From the NCBI RefSeq assembly GCF_000328705.1, contig NC_019673.1, forward strand, positions 4,836,001-4,900,000: a stretch of DNA of 64,000 nucleotides, written 5' to 3'. The DNA comes from Saccharothrix espanaensis DSM 44229. GTDB taxonomy: Bacteria > Actinomycetota > Actinomycetes > Mycobacteriales > Pseudonocardiaceae. Shown piece by piece: positions 47,166 through 55,600 of this stretch. The position numbers and the translations under genes were made by a program. Each line of letters opens with the position of its first letter. Position 1 is the first letter of the stretch. The notes under the pieces are model-generated. The model saw only the letters and a program-made list of their open reading frames with translations. It was not told the DNA's origin and did not search any database.

Positions 47166-47414
47166 CTACCGCCCGACCCGCGTCCCGTGCAGCACGTACC
47201 TGATCGCGGCCATCGAGATGTCGTGCCGGTTGTGCACGATCCGGTAGTGCTCGTGGATGCGCTCCGCGTCCCAGCCCGGACGCCGGCCCAACGACAGGAT
47301 GTCGTCCTGGACGTCCTGCGCCGGCAGGCTCGGCTTCGGACCCCGGTCCGGCGGCCGGTCCTCGCTGCGGATGTCGTACTCGCCCCGCCTGCTGGTGTCG
47401 TCGTCATAGACCAT
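47166..47414 (-). CDS. small hypothetical protein
   Basis: An 82-residue acidic-then-basic protein (RRGEYDIRSEDRPPDRG, DAERIHEHYRIVHNRHDISMAAIRYVLHGTRVGR). No membrane helix or recognised domain; the C-terminal half looks helical. ATG 47414 has GAGGGGG upstream and coding bias is normal, so it is probably real. It is convergent with the TetR gene across 17 bp. The 247 bp from 47415 to 47661 show no clear feature. Confidence 0.6.
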   Translation of the reverse strand: MVYDDDTSRRGEYDIRSEDRPPDRGPKPSLPAQDVQDDILSLGRRPGWDAERIHEHYRIVHNRHDISMAAIRYVLHGTRVGR

Positions 47415-47661
47415 GCGCACCGCCCCCTCGCTGTGCCGCGCCGGACGGCCCTGACGGTAGGAACGGCGATGTGCGCAGGTCCATGACATGTTGTCGGGCA
47501 GGAACCTGACAGCGGACGGCGGGTTCAGGACGGGGTGGCGACAGCCCGCGCGGCGATCACGGCATGATCTCCGAGCCTTTGCTGAGATTGTCCGTCGAGC
47601 CCCGCTCGGAGCCGAACGCCGGCGGTACCCGTGGTCGCCGGGGAAGGGATCCCCTGTACCG

Positions 47662-48261
47662 GTGGTCGCCCGCATCGCGGTTGTCGACCCGCTGCCGCTG
47701 TTCCGGCAGGGGGTCGCCTCGGTCCTGTCGGCGGCCGGGCACTCCGTGGAGACACCGACCGACGTCAGCCTGTGGCTGCGCCGCGCCAAGTCCTCCGTGG
47801 TGCTGCTGACCGTGCGGTCCGAGCGCGACTGGGACCTGCTCGACCGGCTGTGCGGCGCGGCCGGGCACCACCTGGTGATCGCGGTGCTGGACGCGGAGTC
47901 TGCCGTCCTGGGCGCACGTGCGGTGCGGACCGGGGCACGGTCGGTGCTCGCCCGAGACGTCGCCGCCGACACGCTGCGCCAGACCGTGGAGGCGACGATC
48001 GGCGGCCAGGCCGTGATGCCCGCCGACGTGGCCGCCGCGCTGGCCGGCGGTACCCCGCCCAACGGGCAGCGCGCCCTGTCCGCCGAGCAGCTCTCGTGGT
48101 TGCGGCAGTTGGCGAGTGGTTCCACGGTGACGCAGATGGCCGATCGGGCCGGCTACTCGGAACGGGCGATGTTCCGCCTGTTGCAGGCCGTGTACCGACA
48201 GATGGGAGTGCGGACGCGGCTGGAGGCGATCATGCGCGCGCAGGAGTCGGGCTGGTTGTGA
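47662..48261 (+). CDS. LuxR/NarL-type regulator with a pseudo-receiver domain
   Basis: A 199-residue protein shaped like a response regulator but missing its key residues: the N-terminal acidic pair reads VVDPLP instead of DD, the phosphoacceptor strand reads VVLLTVRSE with Thr where Asp should be, and the Lys strand is VLARDVAAD. The C-terminal helix-turn-helix (LSAEQLSWLRQLASGSTVTQMADRAGYSERAMFRLLQAVYRQMG, split motif) is recognisable but weak. It cannot be phosphorylated in the normal way. It lies 9 bp from the end of the large kinase-STAND gene and may report its state. The start (GTG 47662) is uncertain. Confidence 0.72.
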   Translation: MVARIAVVDPLPLFRQGVASVLSAAGHSVETPTDVSLWLRRAKSSVVLLTVRSERDWDLLDRLCGAAGHHLVIAVLDAESAVLGARAVRTGARSVLARDVAADTLRQTVEATIGGQAVMPADVAAALAGGTPPNGQRALSAEQLSWLRQLASGSTVTQMADRAGYSERAMFRLLQAVYRQMGVRTRLEAIMRAQESGWL

Positions 48262-48270
48262 GCCCGCGCG

Positions 48271-51200
48271 TCAGAGGGCGTCCAGGGCGCGCCCGAGCAG
48301 GCCCTGGTCGTCCAGTTCTCCGATCAGGAACCGCAACCGGTCGACCAGTGCGGGCGGGGTCCGCCGCCGCGTCCTGCCGAGCACCTCGACGGCCGGGGCG
48401 AGATCCGCCCCGTCCACCAGGTGCAGTCCGCAGAGCGCGTAGCCGCGGAAGTCCCAGGCCGCGAAGTCGTCGCCGTCGAGAGCGGTGCGGGCGGTCGACT
48501 CGTCCAGCAGCGCGCGGAACCGGCGGCTCGCCGTCGCCCGGTCGCCCTTCTGGTAGGACGCCAGGCCGAGCAGCGCGAGCACGACCAGCGAACGCCCTTC
48601 GGTTCGGTAGGGGAGCGCTTGCTCGATCTCGCTCCAGGCGTGCTCGCGACGGCCCGTCTTCAGGTAGACCAGGCAGAGCGTGGTCCGCGCCTGCAACAGG
48701 GTGACCGGGTCGTGGTGGCGCAACGCCTCGTCCACGGCGGTCAGCGCCGCCGCTTGCGCCAACTCGAACTCGCCTTGGTGGACCAGCAGGGTGGCGCGCC
48801 CGTCCAGGCAGGAGGTCCGCAGCCACGATCCGCCGAGTTCGGTCGCCGCCAGCTTCGCGAGTTCGACGTATCGCGTCGCCTCGACCGCGTCACCCCGCTC
48901 CCCGAACCACCGCGCGAGCTTGAGCATGAGGGCGACACCGCGGGACTCCGCGTGGTCGCGTGCCGACCGGGTGTCCGGGTAGTCGGGTCGTCGCGGCAGC
49001 TCAAGCGCCTCCACCGCGTGCCGCACGGCGTCCTCGTAGCGCCCCTGACGCCGGTCGCAGTCCGCGATGCCCTCCAGCGCGCCCATCAGGATCACCGGGT
49101 CGTCCAGCCGGCGGGCGTCGTCGCGCGCCAGCTCGAAGTAGCCGAGGGCGCGGTTCGTGTCGCTCCACTGCCAGTACAGCGCCGCGAGGTTGACCCGGAT
49201 CTTCGCCTGGCTGATCTCGTCACGGCGGGCGGTCGCGAGGGCGAACGCCCGCCCATAGGCCGATGCGGCCTCGTCGAACCGCCCGTAGGTCGTGTAGATG
49301 ATCGCCAACGCGTTGTGGTTGGCCAGTTCCAGGTGGTCATCCCCCAGCCGGCCGCGAACCTCTTGGCGTGGCTTGAGCAGCAGGTGGGCGGCGTTCCACT
49401 CGCTGAGCACGTCGTGGATCAACTCGATCACGTTGTACGCCGACGCGTGTTTGCGCCCCCTGAGCAGCGCGGTGAGCTCCGCGAAGTGGACGCGGAGGTC
49501 TTCCACGCTCCGGGGATCGTTGTTCTGGAGGAAGGTCAGCTGTGTCGCCGCGAGGAAGTACAGGGTGCCGCGCGCTTCCTCGCTCGGCAGGTGGTCGAGC
49601 ACCAGACGGGCGTCCTGCGCGGGAATGACGTACTGGTCGGGCGGCGCACGCCGGATGACGCGCCCGGCCACCAGAGTCGACAAGGCGCGCCGGACGTCGT
49701 CCGGGGGTACGTCGCCGAGCAGCCCGACGACGGCGGTGTCCGGAACCGGGGTGTCGAGCGCCGCGAGGGCGTGCAGCACCCGGCTTTCGGCCGGCGCGAG
49801 CCCCTCCAGGAGCAGGCCGGTCAGGTAGCCCGGCACGGATTTCCTGGGCTGCGGTGCCAGCAGGGCCGCGAGGGCCCGCAGGTCGATCGCGGTCTTCGCC
49901 ACCGCGACCACCGCGTGGGCCAGTTCGGCATAACGGGGGTTGCCCTGCATCCGGTCGTACAGCGCGCGGCGCGTCTGCTCGGGCAAGCTCGTGTGGTCCC
50001 ACCGGCTGTCGTCGTCCAGACCGGCGAGGTGGTGCAGGAAGTACTCGTAGGGCAGCTTGTCCAGGTAGAGGGGCGCTTCGGCGGTCGGCCACGTGCCGGC
50101 GGCGGGCGAGGCGAGCTCTTGCTGGGTCGCCAGCAGGACGGTGACGCGGTGGCCGGGCCTGGTCGCGAGCATCTCCAGGGCCTCGTCGAGGTCCGGGTCC
50201 ACCAGCTTGCCGGTGTCCGGGTCCAGCAGGTTCTCCGCGGAGTCCACCGCGACCACCACCGGCGACTCGCCCAGCCGCCGCAGCGTCGCCTCCAGCCGCA
50301 CCAGCGACGACCTGCCGTACTGGGGCGCGGGCAGCGCCTCCGACGTGCCCTCCACGTAGTCGATCAGCGTCCCGGTGTCCAGCCGTGCCACGGCGTCGGT
50401 CTCGTGCCGGCAGATCCGTGCCGGGAACCGCCCGAGGTCCCGCGCGGGCGCGCCGTCCAAGGCGACGTCGAGGAGCTTCGTCTTGCCGATGCCGCGCAGC
50501 CCGCGCAGCACGGTGACCCCCCACGGACCGTCGGACAGCCGGGTCCGCAGGGCGAGGAGGTCGGACTTGCGGTCGACCAGCGGACCGGGCAGTTCCCGGT
50601 TCGAGGACCCGAGGGCGCTCGGCGGCACGGCCGGCTCGACCCGCTCTGCACGTCCGAGCGTTCGCTGGTACGCCTCCGCCGCCGTCGCCGCCAAGTGGAA
50701 GCACCATTCCTTCGCGGCGTCCTCCTCGCGGGTGCGGATCCGCCGACCGAGGTGCATCAGGGCGGCACCCACCAGCGACAGCAGGCACTGCTGCCGCCAT
50801 TCCGCGCCCAGGCCCTTCTTCAACTTCGGCGCGGACGACTCGTGGACCGCCGCGCTGAGCCTGCGCAGGTACTCGTACCGGGGCGTGACGTCGTCCGCGT
50901 CCGGGTCCACCAGCACCCGGGAGAGCTTCAGCCGCGTCGAGGCCTTGAACGACTCGAACTCGTCCAGCGCGAGCGTGACCAGCAGGTGCATCGGGTCGCG
51001 CGCGAGCGGGGCGTCGGTGGCGAACCGGTCGTAGTCGATCAGGACGAACGAGTCGGCGTCGACGGTGGGCTCTTTCGGCACGAGGATGTTGCGGCCGTTG
51101 AGGTCGCCGTGTGCTTTGCCGACGATGAAGTCGTGCGTCCGGCGGCCCGCCGCCGTGTCCGCGACGAGCGTGAACGGGTTGGCCAGCGCACCCGGCCAGC

Positions 51201-51783
51201 CGTGCCGGGTGACGCGCTCCTCGGTCCCGTCGACGGCGATGCCCGCCGCGTGCGCCCACCGCCAGACCTCGGTCCGACGCCGGCGCAGGATGTCACCGAG
51301 CACGTCGGCCACCGCGCGCCGCGGCATCGGGGTGCGGTCCTTGTTCCAGTCGCGCACGACCGAGCGGACGATCGTGCCGCAGTGATCGGGGAAGTCCTTG
51401 TCCTCGATCAGGGAGGTCAGCGCGCCGACCGTGGCGATGTTGCCACCCGCGACCCGCAGGAAGACCGCCCGCCAGTCGCCCAGCGGCAGGGCTTGGCGCT
51501 CGACCTTGGCCAGCCGCTTGGTGAAGGACTTCGAGGCGCTCCACGCGGCCTGCGTGTTCGAGATCCGCCGCTCGCCGTCGGCTCGGAAGAACTTCAGGAC
51601 CAGCTGGTCGACGTCGTCGAGCCCCCGGCGCAGCACGCGGGCGACCGGTTCCCCGCTGCGGCCGTCGGTGAACCACTCCTTGTGGTCCAGGGTGAAGTCC
51701 TGGCCGGCCAGCCAGTCCTCCAGCGCGTCCACCACCCCCTCGGGCAGTTCGTCCCAGGCTTCCCGGTCGCCGAGACGCCCCAT
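48271..51783 (-). CDS. kinase-STAND-TPR protein
   Basis: A 1170-residue soluble protein in three parts. Residues 1-370: aminoglycoside-phosphotransferase-like kinase with Lys64 (LVLKFF), the catalytic loop HGDLNGRN (225-232) and metal site LIDYDRF (248-254). Residues 395-780: STAND NTPase with P-loop GLRGIGKT (428-435), Walker B VVVAVDSAE (509-517) and a winged-helix region. Residues 790-1150: TPR superhelix. The APH-like part resembles the ternary-complex-associated phosphotransferase domains found with STAND modules in conflict systems. ATG 51783 has AGGAGGGGG upstream. It is divergent from the XRE-STAND gene. Confidence 0.85.
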   Translation of the reverse strand: MGRLGDREAWDELPEGVVDALEDWLAGQDFTLDHKEWFTDGRSGEPVARVLRRGLDDVDQLVLKFFRADGERRISNTQAAWSASKSFTKRLAKVERQALPLGDWRAVFLRVAGGNIATVGALTSLIEDKDFPDHCGTIVRSVVRDWNKDRTPMPRRAVADVLGDILRRRRTEVWRWAHAAGIAVDGTEERVTRHGWPGALANPFTLVADTAAGRRTHDFIVGKAHGDLNGRNILVPKEPTVDADSFVLIDYDRFATDAPLARDPMHLLVTLALDEFESFKASTRLKLSRVLVDPDADDVTPRYEYLRRLSAAVHESSAPKLKKGLGAEWRQQCLLSLVGAALMHLGRRIRTREEDAAKEWCFHLAATAAEAYQRTLGRAERVEPAVPPSALGSSNRELPGPLVDRKSDLLALRTRLSDGPWGVTVLRGLRGIGKTKLLDVALDGAPARDLGRFPARICRHETDAVARLDTGTLIDYVEGTSEALPAPQYGRSSLVRLEATLRRLGESPVVVAVDSAENLLDPDTGKLVDPDLDEALEMLATRPGHRVTVLLATQQELASPAAGTWPTAEAPLYLDKLPYEYFLHHLAGLDDDSRWDHTSLPEQTRRALYDRMQGNPRYAELAHAVVAVAKTAIDLRALAALLAPQPRKSVPGYLTGLLLEGLAPAESRVLHALAALDTPVPDTAVVGLLGDVPPDDVRRALSTLVAGRVIRRAPPDQYVIPAQDARLVLDHLPSEEARGTLYFLAATQLTFLQNNDPRSVEDLRVHFAELTALLRGRKHASAYNVIELIHDVLSEWNAAHLLLKPRQEVRGRLGDDHLELANHNALAIIYTTYGRFDEAASAYGRAFALATARRDEISQAKIRVNLAALYWQWSDTNRALGYFELARDDARRLDDPVILMGALEGIADCDRRQGRYEDAVRHAVEALELPRRPDYPDTRSARDHAESRGVALMLKLARWFGERGDAVEATRYVELAKLAATELGGSWLRTSCLDGRATLLVHQGEFELAQAAALTAVDEALRHHDPVTLLQARTTLCLVYLKTGRREHAWSEIEQALPYRTEGRSLVVLALLGLASYQKGDRATASRRFRALLDESTARTALDGDDFAAWDFRGYALCGLHLVDGADLAPAVEVLGRTRRRTPPALVDRLRFLIGELDDQGLLGRALDAL

Positions 51784-52151
51784 GCCCCCTCCTGACGGCC
51801 GACGTCACTGCCCCAGCGAATCTAGACGCCGCGCCCGGTCCGGCGAATCCGCCCGTGGGGTGGTCGGACGCCTTCAACCGTACGGACTTGTCCGACCTGA
51901 CCTCCCGCGCTCGGACCGATCACGCGCCGGGCGGATCGTTGACCGCGTTGCCCGACGACGAAGGAGCGCCATGACCGGTCGACCCGGCAGCCACCCCACG
52001 CCCCGGACCCACCCGGTCCCGTCAGCCGAGCCCGGCGGCACGGGGCCGTCGTGCCCGCGTGGGCTGCCGCCGTCACGCACCGCCCGTCGCGTCGCGCCCA
52101 CTCGATCCGCCCGCCGCACCGCGCCCGCCCGTGACGTCGAGGAGGTGGCCG
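51784..52151. promoter_or_regulatory. 368-bp divergent region between two STAND genes
   Basis: Holds the start region of the kinase-STAND gene on one side and a candidate small frame (51971-52183) on the other. No clear palindrome or near-consensus promoter stands out. Confidence 0.4.
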
Positions 52152-52183
52152 ATGTCCGACCCGGCACGCGTCGCCACCCGTGA
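51971..52183 (+). CDS. possible 70-residue leader protein before the XRE-STAND gene
   Basis: ATG 51971 has a strong ribosome-binding site (GAAGGAG) 5 bases upstream, and the frame keeps high third-position GC for 70 codons. The product is Pro/Arg/Thr-rich and low in complexity (PRTHPVPSAEPGG, RRVAPTRSARRTAPARD), with no domain. It overlaps the XRE-STAND start at 52152 by 32 bases in another frame. It may be a small protein, a translated leader that controls the STAND gene, or chance. Confidence 0.35.
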   Translation: MTGRPGSHPTPRTHPVPSAEPGGTGPSCPRGLPPSRTARRVAPTRSARRTAPARDVEEVADVRPGTRRHP

Positions 52184-54725
52184 CGACTTCGGCCGCGAAC
52201 TGGGCCTGCTGCGGGAGGCGGCCGGGCTGACCGTCCGGGGTCTCGCCGGGGCGATCGGCGTGCCGGCGAGCACGCTCGGCGGCTACTTCACCGGAGCCCA
52301 CCTGCCTCGACCCGGCAGCACCGCCTTCCGCGACCTGCTGCGCGCGTGCGGGGTAACGGACGGTGCGGCGGCCGACGCCTGGGTGCTGGCGCTGCGCCGG
52401 GCCCGGGTGGTGCGGCCGGAACCCGCGCCCGAGCCGCCGCCGGGTCCCGCCGGTTCGCCGGAGATCGTCGTGTCGACCCGCGCGCCCGTGGACCGGCTCG
52501 CGCGCCAGCCCCGACCGCGGGGCCGGGACGATCTGCTCGACCGGCTCTCGGCGGTGTTGCGCGAACCAGGCGACGGCTGCCGGACACACGTGCTGCACGG
52601 GCTCGGCGGCTGCGGCAAGAGCACCGCGGCCCTGGCCCTGGCCCGTCTGGCGGAGCGGCGGGGCGTCCAGGTGTGGTGGGTGTCGGCCGGTGATCCCGCC
52701 CTGTTCACCGCGAGCGTGCACGCGGTCGCGGTGGAACTCGGGATCGCGCCCGAGCAATTGCGCCTGGGCAGCTTGCCCGACCGGGTGTGGGCGGGCCTCG
52801 TCGCGTACGAGCGGCCGTGGCTGCTGGTCTTCGACGAGGCCGACGAGCCGTCCCGGCTGGCCCTGCCGGGCGCGGTTGTGTCCGACGGCAACGGCTGGCT
52901 GCGGCCGGGCGTCCCGGCGCACGGCGCGGTGCTGGTCACCACCCGCAACAGGGCCCCCGAGCACTGGGCCGCGGTCGACCGGCGGTGGCTGCGGCTGCAC
53001 GCGGTCGACACCCTGTCCCCCGACGACGGCGCGCGTGTCCTGCTCGAACTGGCCGGGGAGGCCGCGGGCGACCTCGCGGCGGCCCGCCGGCTGTCCACCA
53101 GGCTGGGCGGCCTGCCGCTCGCGCTGCGCCTCGCCGGCCACTACCTCCGGGAGGTCACTGCCATGCCGCCGAACTTCGCTGATCGAGGCGACCCCGCGAA
53201 CTTCGACGAGTACGCCGCGGCGATGGACGAGGGCAAGCACGACGACCTCCTCGACGCGCGGCCCGACGCCGGCCACCGCGAGACCATCGGACGCACCTGG
53301 GAGCTCTCGCTGGACATGCTCGCCAACACCGGGGCACCGGAGGCCCGCCCGGTCCTGCGGCTGCTGTCCTGCCTGCGATCTGCACCGGTCCCGGTCGACC
53401 TGCTGCGCGCCGACGTCCTCGCGGCCTCGCCGCTGTTCCCCGCGCTCACCGCGCGCCGGTTGTGGCACGCGATCACCGAACTGATCAACGTCGGCCTGGT
53501 CGACCGCCGGCCCACCGGGGACGGGAGCGCCGAGTCGCTCGTCCTGCACCCACTGGTGCGCGAGGCGTCGCGGCGTCAGGACGACATGGCCGGCGACGCG
53601 GCGGCCTACCTGGCGCTGCTGGCCTCGCTCCTGTCGCACGCGGTGCGCGACCTGGACCCGAAACACCCGTCCTCGTGGGCGCGCTGGTCGGCGCTGGCCG
53701 TGCACTGCCCGGCACCGCTGGACCTGGTCGTGGAACGGGGGCCGGGCCAGGTGCGCGACGCCACCGCCGTACTGCGGCCGGCGCTGGCCGCAGCACGGTA
53801 CCTGCGCGCGGCGGGCCACCCGTCCCAGGCGGTCGAGGAGTGCGCTGCGGTGCTCTCCGCCGCACGGGGACTGCTGGACCGAGACCACCCCGTCACCCTC
53901 GCGCTGCACCACGAACAGGGCCGCAGCCGCTACGAGGCCGGTCGTTACGACCAGGCCAAGCGCGACCTGCACGACGTGCTGGAGCGGCGTCGTCGGGTGT
54001 TGGGCGGTGATCACCCGGACACCGCGACCACGCTCCACTACCTGGGTCGTGTCCTGCTCGACCACGACCTGGTCGACTTCGCCGAGCGCTACTTCGCCGA
54101 AGCTCTCGACATCCGTCGCCGGACTCTCGGTGACCGCCACCCGGACACACTGACCAGCTTGAACAACATGGCCGCCGTTCACCTGGAGCGCGGCCGGTCG
54201 GCCGGGGACGACACCGGGCGCGGCGAACTGGACGCCGCCGACACCCTGCTCCAGCAGGTACTGGCGGCCCGCCGGGAGGCGCTCGGCGACGAGCACCCGG
54301 CCACTCTGGTCACCCACTACCACCTGTGCCGGTTGGCGCAGGAGCGCGGTGATCTCGACCTCGCCGAGCGGCTGCTGCGCCGGCTCGCCGACGTCGGCGC
54401 GCGGGTCCTCGGACCGGCGCACCGGCGCACGTTGGGCGCCCGCCAACTGCTGGCTGACGTCCGTCACTCCCAGGGTGACGCGGCGGAGGCCGGCGAGCTG
54501 ACCCGGGACGTCCTGCGGACGCGTGACCGGATGCTCGGCTGCGACCACCCGGCGACCCTGGTGTCCCGCCACCGGCTGGCCCTGCTGCTGCGCGAGCGCG
54601 GCGAGGTCGAGCAGGCTTGTGTGCTCCTGACCGCCGTCGTGGCCGATCGGCACCGCGTGCTCGGTGCGCGGCACCAGGAGACCTGCCGCGCTTCGGCAGA
54701 TCTGGCCGCGTTGGAGGAGTCATGA
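52152..54725 (+). CDS. XRE-STAND (NB-ARC)-TPR protein
   Basis: An 857-residue regulator-like NTPase. Residues 10-65 are an XRE helix-turn-helix (FGRELGLLREAAGLTVRGLAGAIGVPASTLGGYFTG, described as a motif), residues 140-420 an NB-ARC module with P-loop GLGGCGKST (150-158), Walker B LLVFDEAD (223-230), sensor TTRN (264-267) and GLPLAL (320-325), then a winged-helix stretch and kinesin-light-chain-like TPRs with GxxHPxT repeats (from about 575). ATG 52152 has GAGGAGGTG upstream. Its stop overlaps the cyclase-like gene start (ATGA). Confidence 0.9.
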   Translation: MSDPARVATRDDFGRELGLLREAAGLTVRGLAGAIGVPASTLGGYFTGAHLPRPGSTAFRDLLRACGVTDGAAADAWVLALRRARVVRPEPAPEPPPGPAGSPEIVVSTRAPVDRLARQPRPRGRDDLLDRLSAVLREPGDGCRTHVLHGLGGCGKSTAALALARLAERRGVQVWWVSAGDPALFTASVHAVAVELGIAPEQLRLGSLPDRVWAGLVAYERPWLLVFDEADEPSRLALPGAVVSDGNGWLRPGVPAHGAVLVTTRNRAPEHWAAVDRRWLRLHAVDTLSPDDGARVLLELAGEAAGDLAAARRLSTRLGGLPLALRLAGHYLREVTAMPPNFADRGDPANFDEYAAAMDEGKHDDLLDARPDAGHRETIGRTWELSLDMLANTGAPEARPVLRLLSCLRSAPVPVDLLRADVLAASPLFPALTARRLWHAITELINVGLVDRRPTGDGSAESLVLHPLVREASRRQDDMAGDAAAYLALLASLLSHAVRDLDPKHPSSWARWSALAVHCPAPLDLVVERGPGQVRDATAVLRPALAAARYLRAAGHPSQAVEECAAVLSAARGLLDRDHPVTLALHHEQGRSRYEAGRYDQAKRDLHDVLERRRRVLGGDHPDTATTLHYLGRVLLDHDLVDFAERYFAEALDIRRRTLGDRHPDTLTSLNNMAAVHLERGRSAGDDTGRGELDAADTLLQQVLAARREALGDEHPATLVTHYHLCRLAQERGDLDLAERLLRRLADVGARVLGPAHRRTLGARQLLADVRHSQGDAAEAGELTRDVLRTRDRMLGCDHPATLVSRHRLALLLRERGEVEQACVLLTAVVADRHRVLGARHQETCRASADLAALEES

Positions 54726-55600
54726 CAGACGTGCCGCGCGACCTGACTGCCCCCGTCGACGCACGGGTCCTCCGGTTCCGCGACCGGGACACCGTGCCGG
54801 CCGGCGGGCCGGAAGCGCTGTTGGCCGGCGGTGTCGACCCCACGACGCTGCTGAGAATGCGAACGCGACTCTGCTCCGTCGAGTGCCTGCTGCTCTCGCG
54901 TCTGGTGGAGGAGCACGTCGTGGCCCACCAGGTCGTCGTGGAGCCGACCGTGTGGGTACCCCGCCAGGTGACCGCTGCCGACTTGGTGCTCCCCACCCAG
55001 GCCCGCCGGTCCGTGGCCCCCGCCGCGGGGGACGACCCGTCGTCACCGGGCAGGCGGGCGCGGCGGCCGTTGCGGATGGGGTTCGTTGTGGACGTCGTCG
55101 GCTACGGCGCACGCACGGCGCGGCTGCGGGCGTTGGCTCAGCGCCGGGTTTCCGAACTGAACTCGGCCGTGCTGGAGCACCTGGGCGTCGATCTGCGGGA
55201 CGTCGACCACCAGGGAACCGGGGACGGCGTGCTCGTGTTCCTGCCGCCCCACGTGGACGTGCCGTGGACGGTGCCCCGGCTGCTGCGCGGCTGGTGGGAC
55301 CTGTTGCACGAGGACAACGAGCTGTACACGGACCGGTTGCGGCTGCGCATGGCGGTGGCGCTCGGCCCGGTCGCCCCCGGACCGCTGGGATTCGTCGGCC
55401 CGCCCGCGACGACGGCGGGGCGACTGCTGGACAGCGAGGTGCTGCGGGCCGCACTGGCCGAGGAGCAGGCCACCGACCTTGCGGTACTGGTGTCCGACGC
55501 GGTGCACTCCTTCGCCGTCGACCCGGCCGACCCCGCGTTCACCCGCCGCCCGGTCGGGGTGAAGGACTACCGCGCCGACGGGTGGCTGTGGGTCGGATGA
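54722..55600 (+). CDS. class III nucleotide-cyclase-like protein
   Basis: A 292-residue protein made with the STAND protein through an ATGA overlap and its own GGAGGAG site. Residues 118-292 follow the class III cyclase fold: first metal Asp in FVVDVVGYG (Asp124), second in [14 protein letters not shown] (Asp168), then [12 protein letters not shown] and [13 protein letters not shown]. Both metal aspartates are present, so it may be active, but the substrate- and transition-state residues cannot be checked by eye. Residues 1-110 are of unknown type. Solitary actinomycete proteins of this shape often accompany STAND genes. Confidence 0.75.

Follow-up and report, generated by a model that had tools for sequence, protein, structure and literature searches.

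The chromosome of Saccharothrix espanaensis DSM 44229 (9.36 Mb, a single contig) contains, within the 64,000-nucleotide stretch analyzed here (NC_019673.1, positions 4,836,001 to 4,900,000; hereafter the window), four genes that a preliminary description had joined into one candidate conflict system: a regulator with a pseudo-receiver, a kinase-STAND-TPR protein, an XRE-STAND-TPR protein and a cyclase-like protein. All four are present, in the order and on the strands claimed, and they make up two separate modules lying side by side, not one four-gene system. Module A (47166-51783) is built on a gene pair conserved among actinomycetes: a NarL/LuxR-type regulator and an NLR-like STAND protein are encoded tail to tail, and the N-terminus of the STAND protein has been swapped repeatedly in evolution; module B (52152-55600) holds the XRE-STAND and cyclase-like genes. 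The anatomy of module A, its pairing, the exchange of its domains and a motif upstream of the regulator gene are established by computation.

What separates the two modules? In the 45 closest regulator loci from other genomes, taken with flanks of up to 8 kb, neither a cyclase nor an XRE-STAND homologue was found, so that modules A and B are, as far as seen, neighbors only here. None of 27 loci centered on the cyclase domain has an XRE-STAND-like gene directly beside it (at locus L054 a STAND-like gene lies two genes away, a weak match of 31% over 230 aa), and among 20 loci with XRE-STAND homologues a cyclase domain is found next door in one (L137), inside another STAND-TPR protein. A single system can be given hardly any weight: all four genes do fit into 8 kb, and conflict-system parts make up both halves, but the regulator loci lack the second half, and relatives of the cyclase and XRE-STAND proteins are widespread without the first. 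In the genomes compared, the foursome does not recur, the very outcome that the preliminary description had named as its refutation. What survives of the preliminary description is the makeup, as both STAND proteins and their partners use parts of predicted conflict systems; what the neighborhoods bring out instead of the foursome is the strongly conserved pair of regulator and kinase-STAND protein, which had not been singled out.

The regulator-STAND pair and its exchangeable N-terminus

An alignment search of genome contigs with the regulator returned 54 loci. A STAND homologue lies within the locus at 44 of the closest 45 (L081-L125; 42-68% identity), and at the exception (L103) the contig ends 165 bp past the regulator. 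The pairing also holds when the search starts from the STAND gene: a STAND profile matched, at E 1e-60, at least 10 of 297 Pseudonocardiaceae genomes (a lower bound, with three candidates scored per genome; some of the ten are strains that the other collection also contains), and nine of these have the regulator, the tenth (L213) being the weakest, partial match. With the entire kinase-STAND protein, matches at E 1e-20 were found in six genomes in a set of 199 relatives: two reach the kinase alone and four, the window's included, reach the STAND part, and in all three others of these four the regulator adjoins the STAND gene. In a sample of the phylum, the regulator was matched at 1e-25 in 11 of 396 genomes, all but the window's being distant relatives.

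The layout is conserved as well. Convergent orientation is seen in 41 of 44 pairs (two are divergent, one tandem), and 37 of the 41 have a gap of 30 bp or less, with overlap in 21; among the remaining convergent gene pairs of these loci, taken as a control, the median gap is 63 bp and 20 of 58 have 30 bp or less. The regulator and STAND trees correlate (r 0.71, n=42; the maximum of 2000 permutations is 0.32), a correlation that is confounded by species descent. Micromonospora parva has two pairs (L085, L105) about 25 kb apart on one contig (NZ_JNZS01000015.1), one STAND protein with a kinase and the other with a membrane-type N-terminus.

The STAND protein of the window matches TPR_12 above the Pfam cut-off, and AAA families and nSTAND6 below it. 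Its P-loop fits G.{4}GK[ST], with G29, G32, G34 and K35 (aligned-region numbering) invariant in 42 rows. A model of the STAND-TPR part (predicted local distance difference test score, pLDDT, 91; predicted template modeling score, pTM, 0.87) has the STAND-TPR protein 6mfv as its best PDB match (E 4e-16) and Apaf-1 among its matches (3sfz, 3.8e-7; 1z6t). The P-loop, the AAA and TPR family matches and the likeness of the model to 6mfv and Apaf-1 identify an NLR-like STAND NTPase.

In front of this core lies a domain that matches Pfam TCAD9 (PF19974) at 54.3 bits against a cut-off of 40, covering only profile positions 241-372 of 429. Searched against PDB, its sequence profile found no significant kinase (best match a reductase, E 0.022). 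Its AlphaFold2 model (pLDDT 84, pTM 0.85) gave 43 Foldseek matches at E 0.001 or below, nearly all of them aminoglycoside phosphotransferases (APH) and the best to APH(3') enzymes (E 1.9e-5; TM-score by target about 0.5). Active-site residues H225, D227, N232 and D250 are found in 20 of 20 aligned rows, and K64 in 19, with a gap in the other. The fold, the lysine, the HxDxxxxN motif and the aspartate are thus those of an APH-like kinase, in agreement with the preliminary description.

How constant is this N-terminus? The region before the P-loop was classified by similarity clustering and a hydropathy scan. Among 48 STAND sequences, it is a kinase in 22, transmembrane in 17, a diadenylate cyclase (DAC) domain in four, TIR in four and EAD1 in one; after removal of three duplicates, the 45 sequences comprise 21 kinase, 16 transmembrane, four TIR, three DisA-like DAC and one EAD1. 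Pfam confirmed TIR_2 (4/4), DAC (3/3) and EAD1 (1); of five kinase members scanned, four matched TCAD9, two of these above cut-off. A simple hydropathy scan is the basis of the transmembrane class, for which Pfam gave no support. In the tree of the STAND proteins (42 rows; Shimodaira-Hasegawa-like approximate likelihood ratio test, SH-aLRT), the N-terminus changed at least six times, the minimum for five states being four. The window protein shares a starred set of five with one other kinase row and three DAC rows, and this set is nested in a larger starred one of 14 rows, all kinase or DAC. In another genome (L068), the kinase family of module A is fused to the Death-like domain bDLD3. On a Streptomyces linear plasmid (NZ_CP109010.1; L155, 5887-10611), a TCAD9-STAND-TPR gene adjoins genes for an S_4TM pore-forming effector and IS3 transposases.

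The pseudo-receiver regulator and its upstream motif

Family matches of the regulator are weak (Pfam GerE 0.0055 and Response_reg 0.2) or far below cut-off (NCBIfam MadR 6.5e-7 and NarL 8.8e-6). It has Thr50 at the phospho-acceptor position, where 47 regulator loci have T in 44, S in three and the canonical Asp in none; Asp9 and R98 are kept in 47/47. The claim that this receiver cannot be phosphorylated in the usual way is upheld. Asp is also missing from the acceptor site in all 15 rows of more distant regulators that cover it. Distant regulators (L126-L130 and L193-L204, the latter with flanks of about 1.5 kb), several from Acidimicrobiia metagenome-assembled genomes (MAGs), have no STAND gene nearby.

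Upstream of the regulator gene lies a 14-bp motif, GCAGGTCCATGACA, found within three mismatches at 39 of 47 loci as against 2 of 200 shuffled regions, with the caveat that its seed and matrix were drawn from the same loci as were tested; at loci outside the matrix (L209, L210, L212), two of three score 16 or more. The 8-mer GGTCCATG is common to 22 of 44 regions upstream of the regulator. In the whole genome, a perfect GCAGGTCCATGACA match occurs at a single site, the window copy. Further genomic copies are not enriched (34 matches with at most one mismatch, 31 for a reversed control), and a motif shared with the STAND promoter was not found (sites upstream of STAND genes 4, elsewhere 41).

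Which protein would bind there? The divergent side holds a small open reading frame (ORF), which, like the conserved motif (47475-47511), the preliminary description had overlooked. Its homologues occupy the same divergent position at 21 of 47 loci (22 matches, one an IS3-like ORF); four of seven members tested match Pfam HTH_32 below cut-off (best 1.4e-5), and the window's small ORF does not match this Pfam family. Since many loci have the motif but no detected small ORF, the regulator is the more likely predicted binder and, judging from these sequence comparisons, most likely binds the motif in its own promoter.

Table 1. Features of modules A and B (positions in the 64-kb window)
Feature	Position	Strand	Basis or remark
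Small 82-aa ORF, probable HTH protein, module A	47166..47414	-	Divergent from regulator
Operator-like motif GCAGGTCCATGACA, copy 1, perfect	47475..47488	+	Upstream of regulator gene
Operator-like motif, copy 2, weaker (3 mismatches)	47498..47511	+	23 bp downstream of copy 1, same direction
NarL/LuxR-type regulator with pseudo-receiver, module A, 199 aa	47662..48261	+	Weak family matches
APH/TCAD9-like kinase-STAND NTPase-TPR protein, module A, 1170 aa	48271..51783	-	Pfam and structure models
Exchangeable N-terminal APH-like kinase domain, about residues 1-385	50629..51783	-	AlphaFold2 model and Foldseek
Walker A (P-loop) GLRGIGKT of module A STAND NTPase	50479..50502	-	Sequence motif, alignment
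XRE-STAND-TPR protein, module B, 857 aa	52152..54725	+	Pfam; P-loop 52599-52622
Class III nucleotidyl-cyclase-like protein, module B, 292 aa	54722..55600	+	Profile against PDB

The XRE-STAND and cyclase-like genes

The XRE-STAND-TPR protein of module B matches HTH_31 and TPR above the Pfam cut-off, with NACHT and AAA_16 just below; its homologues reach about 40% identity at best. Its stop overlaps the start of the cyclase-like gene as ATGA. The cyclase-like protein has no Pfam match up to E 1 and no NCBIfam match. A profile of 29 cyclase domains gave 21 PDB matches up to E 10, of which 20 are cyclases, four with E below 1e-3 (3mr7, 2.8e-5; 3et6, 1.4e-4; 5o5k, 7.9e-4; 5d0g, 8.5e-4; all cyclases). 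D124, D168, R209 and R234 are found in all 31 aligned domains, the two metal-binding aspartates among them; homology and both aspartates place the protein with the class III nucleotidyl cyclases. Class III cyclases have a catalytic Asn four residues before an Arg. The predicted activity and its product are uncertain because this Asn is replaced by Thr230 in the window protein and is found in 2 of 31 aligned domains.

Homologues of the cyclase domain occur in at least 63 of the 199 relatives at 1e-5 (at most 12 candidates scored per genome). Part of the proteins at the 27 cyclase-centered loci were scanned with Pfam, and three contexts were seen: the domain lies (i) C-terminal to CATRA-N/CATRA-C, beside CATASP and CHAT genes; (ii) C-terminal to EAD2-VMAP-M0, as in the closest relative (66%); or (iii) N-terminal to STAND-TPR proteins. 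The Saccharothrix espanaensis genome itself has the domain with CATRA-N/C, CATASP and CHAT at L047 (8429-13392), beside CHAT proteins at L053 (9485-14035) and L061 (10021-14371), and fused to NB-ARC/P-loop-TPR at L071 (7378-9993) and L074 (9757-12438).

Two lines of descent were considered and set aside: residues 1-104 of the cyclase-like protein as a CATRA remnant (in the comparison with a CATRA protein, the alignment is confined to the cyclase domain), and a direct origin of the XRE-STAND and cyclase pair from cyclase-STAND fusions, for which the case is weak (XRE-STAND against the L071 fusion, E 0.029). Assignment to the FxSxx-COOH system was likewise rejected, the XRE-STAND protein scoring 278 bits against the TPR protein model NF040586 (cut-off 300), with no specific search made for precursor and maturase genes. 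Pycsar is a class III cyclase defense with a gene for a cyclic-nucleotide-binding effector. Module B resembles it in that a class III cyclase-like protein stands in what is probably a conflict setting, but the cyclase has no PADLOC match and its neighbors are the XRE-STAND gene and a dehydrogenase, with no cyclic-nucleotide-binding domain next door. Module B is probably an independent unit loosely analogous to module A, an XRE-STAND-TPR switch coupled to a cyclase-like protein by gene overlap.

The gene after the cyclase-like protein encodes a zinc-type alcohol dehydrogenase (Pfam). Eight of eight relatives examined keep the downstream dehydrogenase-hydrolase pair, but upstream of it their genes are not those of the window; this suits a variable chromosomal site, and no simple insertion, and so no clean empty site, could be read from it. 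ARAGORN calls a tRNA-Ser at 52386-52462, which is 77 nt within a reading frame and was judged a false positive; a tRNA-Pro call at 1791-1882 (92 nt within a predicted reading frame) also looks like one.

Function of the regulator-STAND pair

Is module A a known system under another guise? Avs/AVAST and bNACHT proteins are NLR-like STAND defense proteins with an N-terminal effector, a central STAND NTPase and C-terminal repeats. Module A has the same three-part layout and the same effector exchange between relatives; it differs in its fixed partner regulator, convergent layout and motif, and has no full-length PADLOC match. MalT and AfsR-type regulators are STAND transcription activators. Module A likewise has a STAND NTPase with a TPR-like sensor, but its STAND protein has no DNA-binding domain match and the HTH is on the separate, convergent gene. 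Among the PADLOC and NCBIfam models scanned, none accounts for the regulator-STAND pair, and a literature search, which left out preprints and most subscription papers, found it named nowhere. Parts of the pair do have a place in the literature: excerpts of two papers on predicted conflict systems (PMC7159879, PMC8195603) list APH-related kinases, TIR and EAD1 among their components and mention receivers without histidine kinases. With the ternary and EAD-linked systems of Kaur et al. (2020, 2021), the module A family shares the TCAD9/APH-like kinase, TIR and EAD1, while the cyclase domain of module B is elsewhere fused to EAD2-VMAP-M0 and CATRA; the same excerpts make no mention of a LuxR-type partner of a STAND protein (PMC7159879, PMC8195603). 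Unlike in the vWA-MoxR ternary system, none of the six proteins scanned at and around the locus is a vWA, MoxR or VMAP protein; the search for these did not extend to the remainder of the genome.

The best reading of module A is a role in conflict, because of its NLR-like architecture, the exchange of its output domains and its links to TIR, EAD1 and Death-like domains. On balance, module A is probably an NLR-like switch, triggered by infection and leading to suicide or dormancy, whose dedicated partner regulates itself, module B being independent of it. From the anatomy, we infer a cycle in which the STAND protein would stay switched off as long as its C-terminal TPR superhelix has bound no ligand derived from an invader or from stress; binding would lead, through nucleotide exchange, to oligomerization, bringing the N-terminal domains together, and the APH-like kinase of the window protein would phosphorylate a small molecule or a protein, causing cell arrest or death. 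Where the window protein has its kinase, relatives have TIR, membrane-spanning, DisA-like or EAD1 domains. The pseudo-receiver regulator would set its own level by binding the motif in its promoter, and read-through of either of the abutting or overlapping tail-to-tail genes would be antisense to the other, so that their expression could be coupled or opposed.

Besides the caveats attached above to the motif count, the transmembrane class and the tree comparison, several observations weigh against this reading. More distant regulators (L126-L134; weaker matches or fragments, mostly from MAGs) have no STAND gene at nine of nine loci, some of them truncated. Because motif sites are not enriched upstream of STAND, there is no support for the idea that the regulator controls the STAND promoter. 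The defense-model searches proposed in the preliminary description place module A in no known defense family, PADLOC giving weak, partial matches only: a generic TPR match (7.3e-5) for the window proteins, and partial TPR, ATPase or ThsB-like matches (best 6.3e-7) for nine relatives. No phage or viral-contig homologue of module A was found, and plasmid matches are few and weak. Finally, STAND-TPR proteins also serve as transcription regulators.

Another view is that the pair is a signaling switch for development or secondary metabolism, its N-terminal domains being signaling outputs and not weapons of defense. The pair is indeed found in filamentous actinomycetes with complex development, its partner resembles a transcription factor, and the poor defense-model matches fit as well; it is the patchy spread, in at least 10 of 297 Pseudonocardiaceae (E 1e-60) and two of 25 Saccharothrix-group genomes, together with TIR, EAD1 and kinase-bDLD3 links typical of conflict systems, that makes this view unlikely. 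The near-obligate pairing in both directions and the conserved tail-to-tail overlap would also suit a toxin-antitoxin-like pair, with the STAND protein as a conditional toxin and the regulator as its dedicated inhibitor, acting by protein contact or antisense RNA. Yet the GerE-like HTH of the regulator and the conserved motif upstream of it point to DNA binding, and three pairs are not convergent; such an arrangement is quite improbable.

The conflict reading can be taken further, to a proposal that is possible rather than probable: module A may represent an undescribed actinomycete immune family, in which a phosphorylation-blind, autoregulated and antisense-coupled regulator is the obligate guard partner of an effector-swapping NLR-like STAND receptor. 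In such a family, the killing domain (kinase, TIR, membrane, DisA-like diadenylate cyclase or EAD1 adaptor) would be replaced wholesale while sensor and partner stay, and the regulator could be ligand-sensing or guarded, telling the receptor of transcription disturbed by an invader.

What would this mean for bacterial immunity? A cyclase domain that has no Pfam model recurs across several predicted conflict systems, and on the side of module A, if the reading is true, there would be an NLR-like family whose fixed partner is a transcription factor, a feature absent from the excerpted passages on bacterial STAND systems. The family would be a natural experiment, in which one sensor chassis is combined with five kinds of output domain, and would give non-phosphorylatable receivers a role that can be tested.

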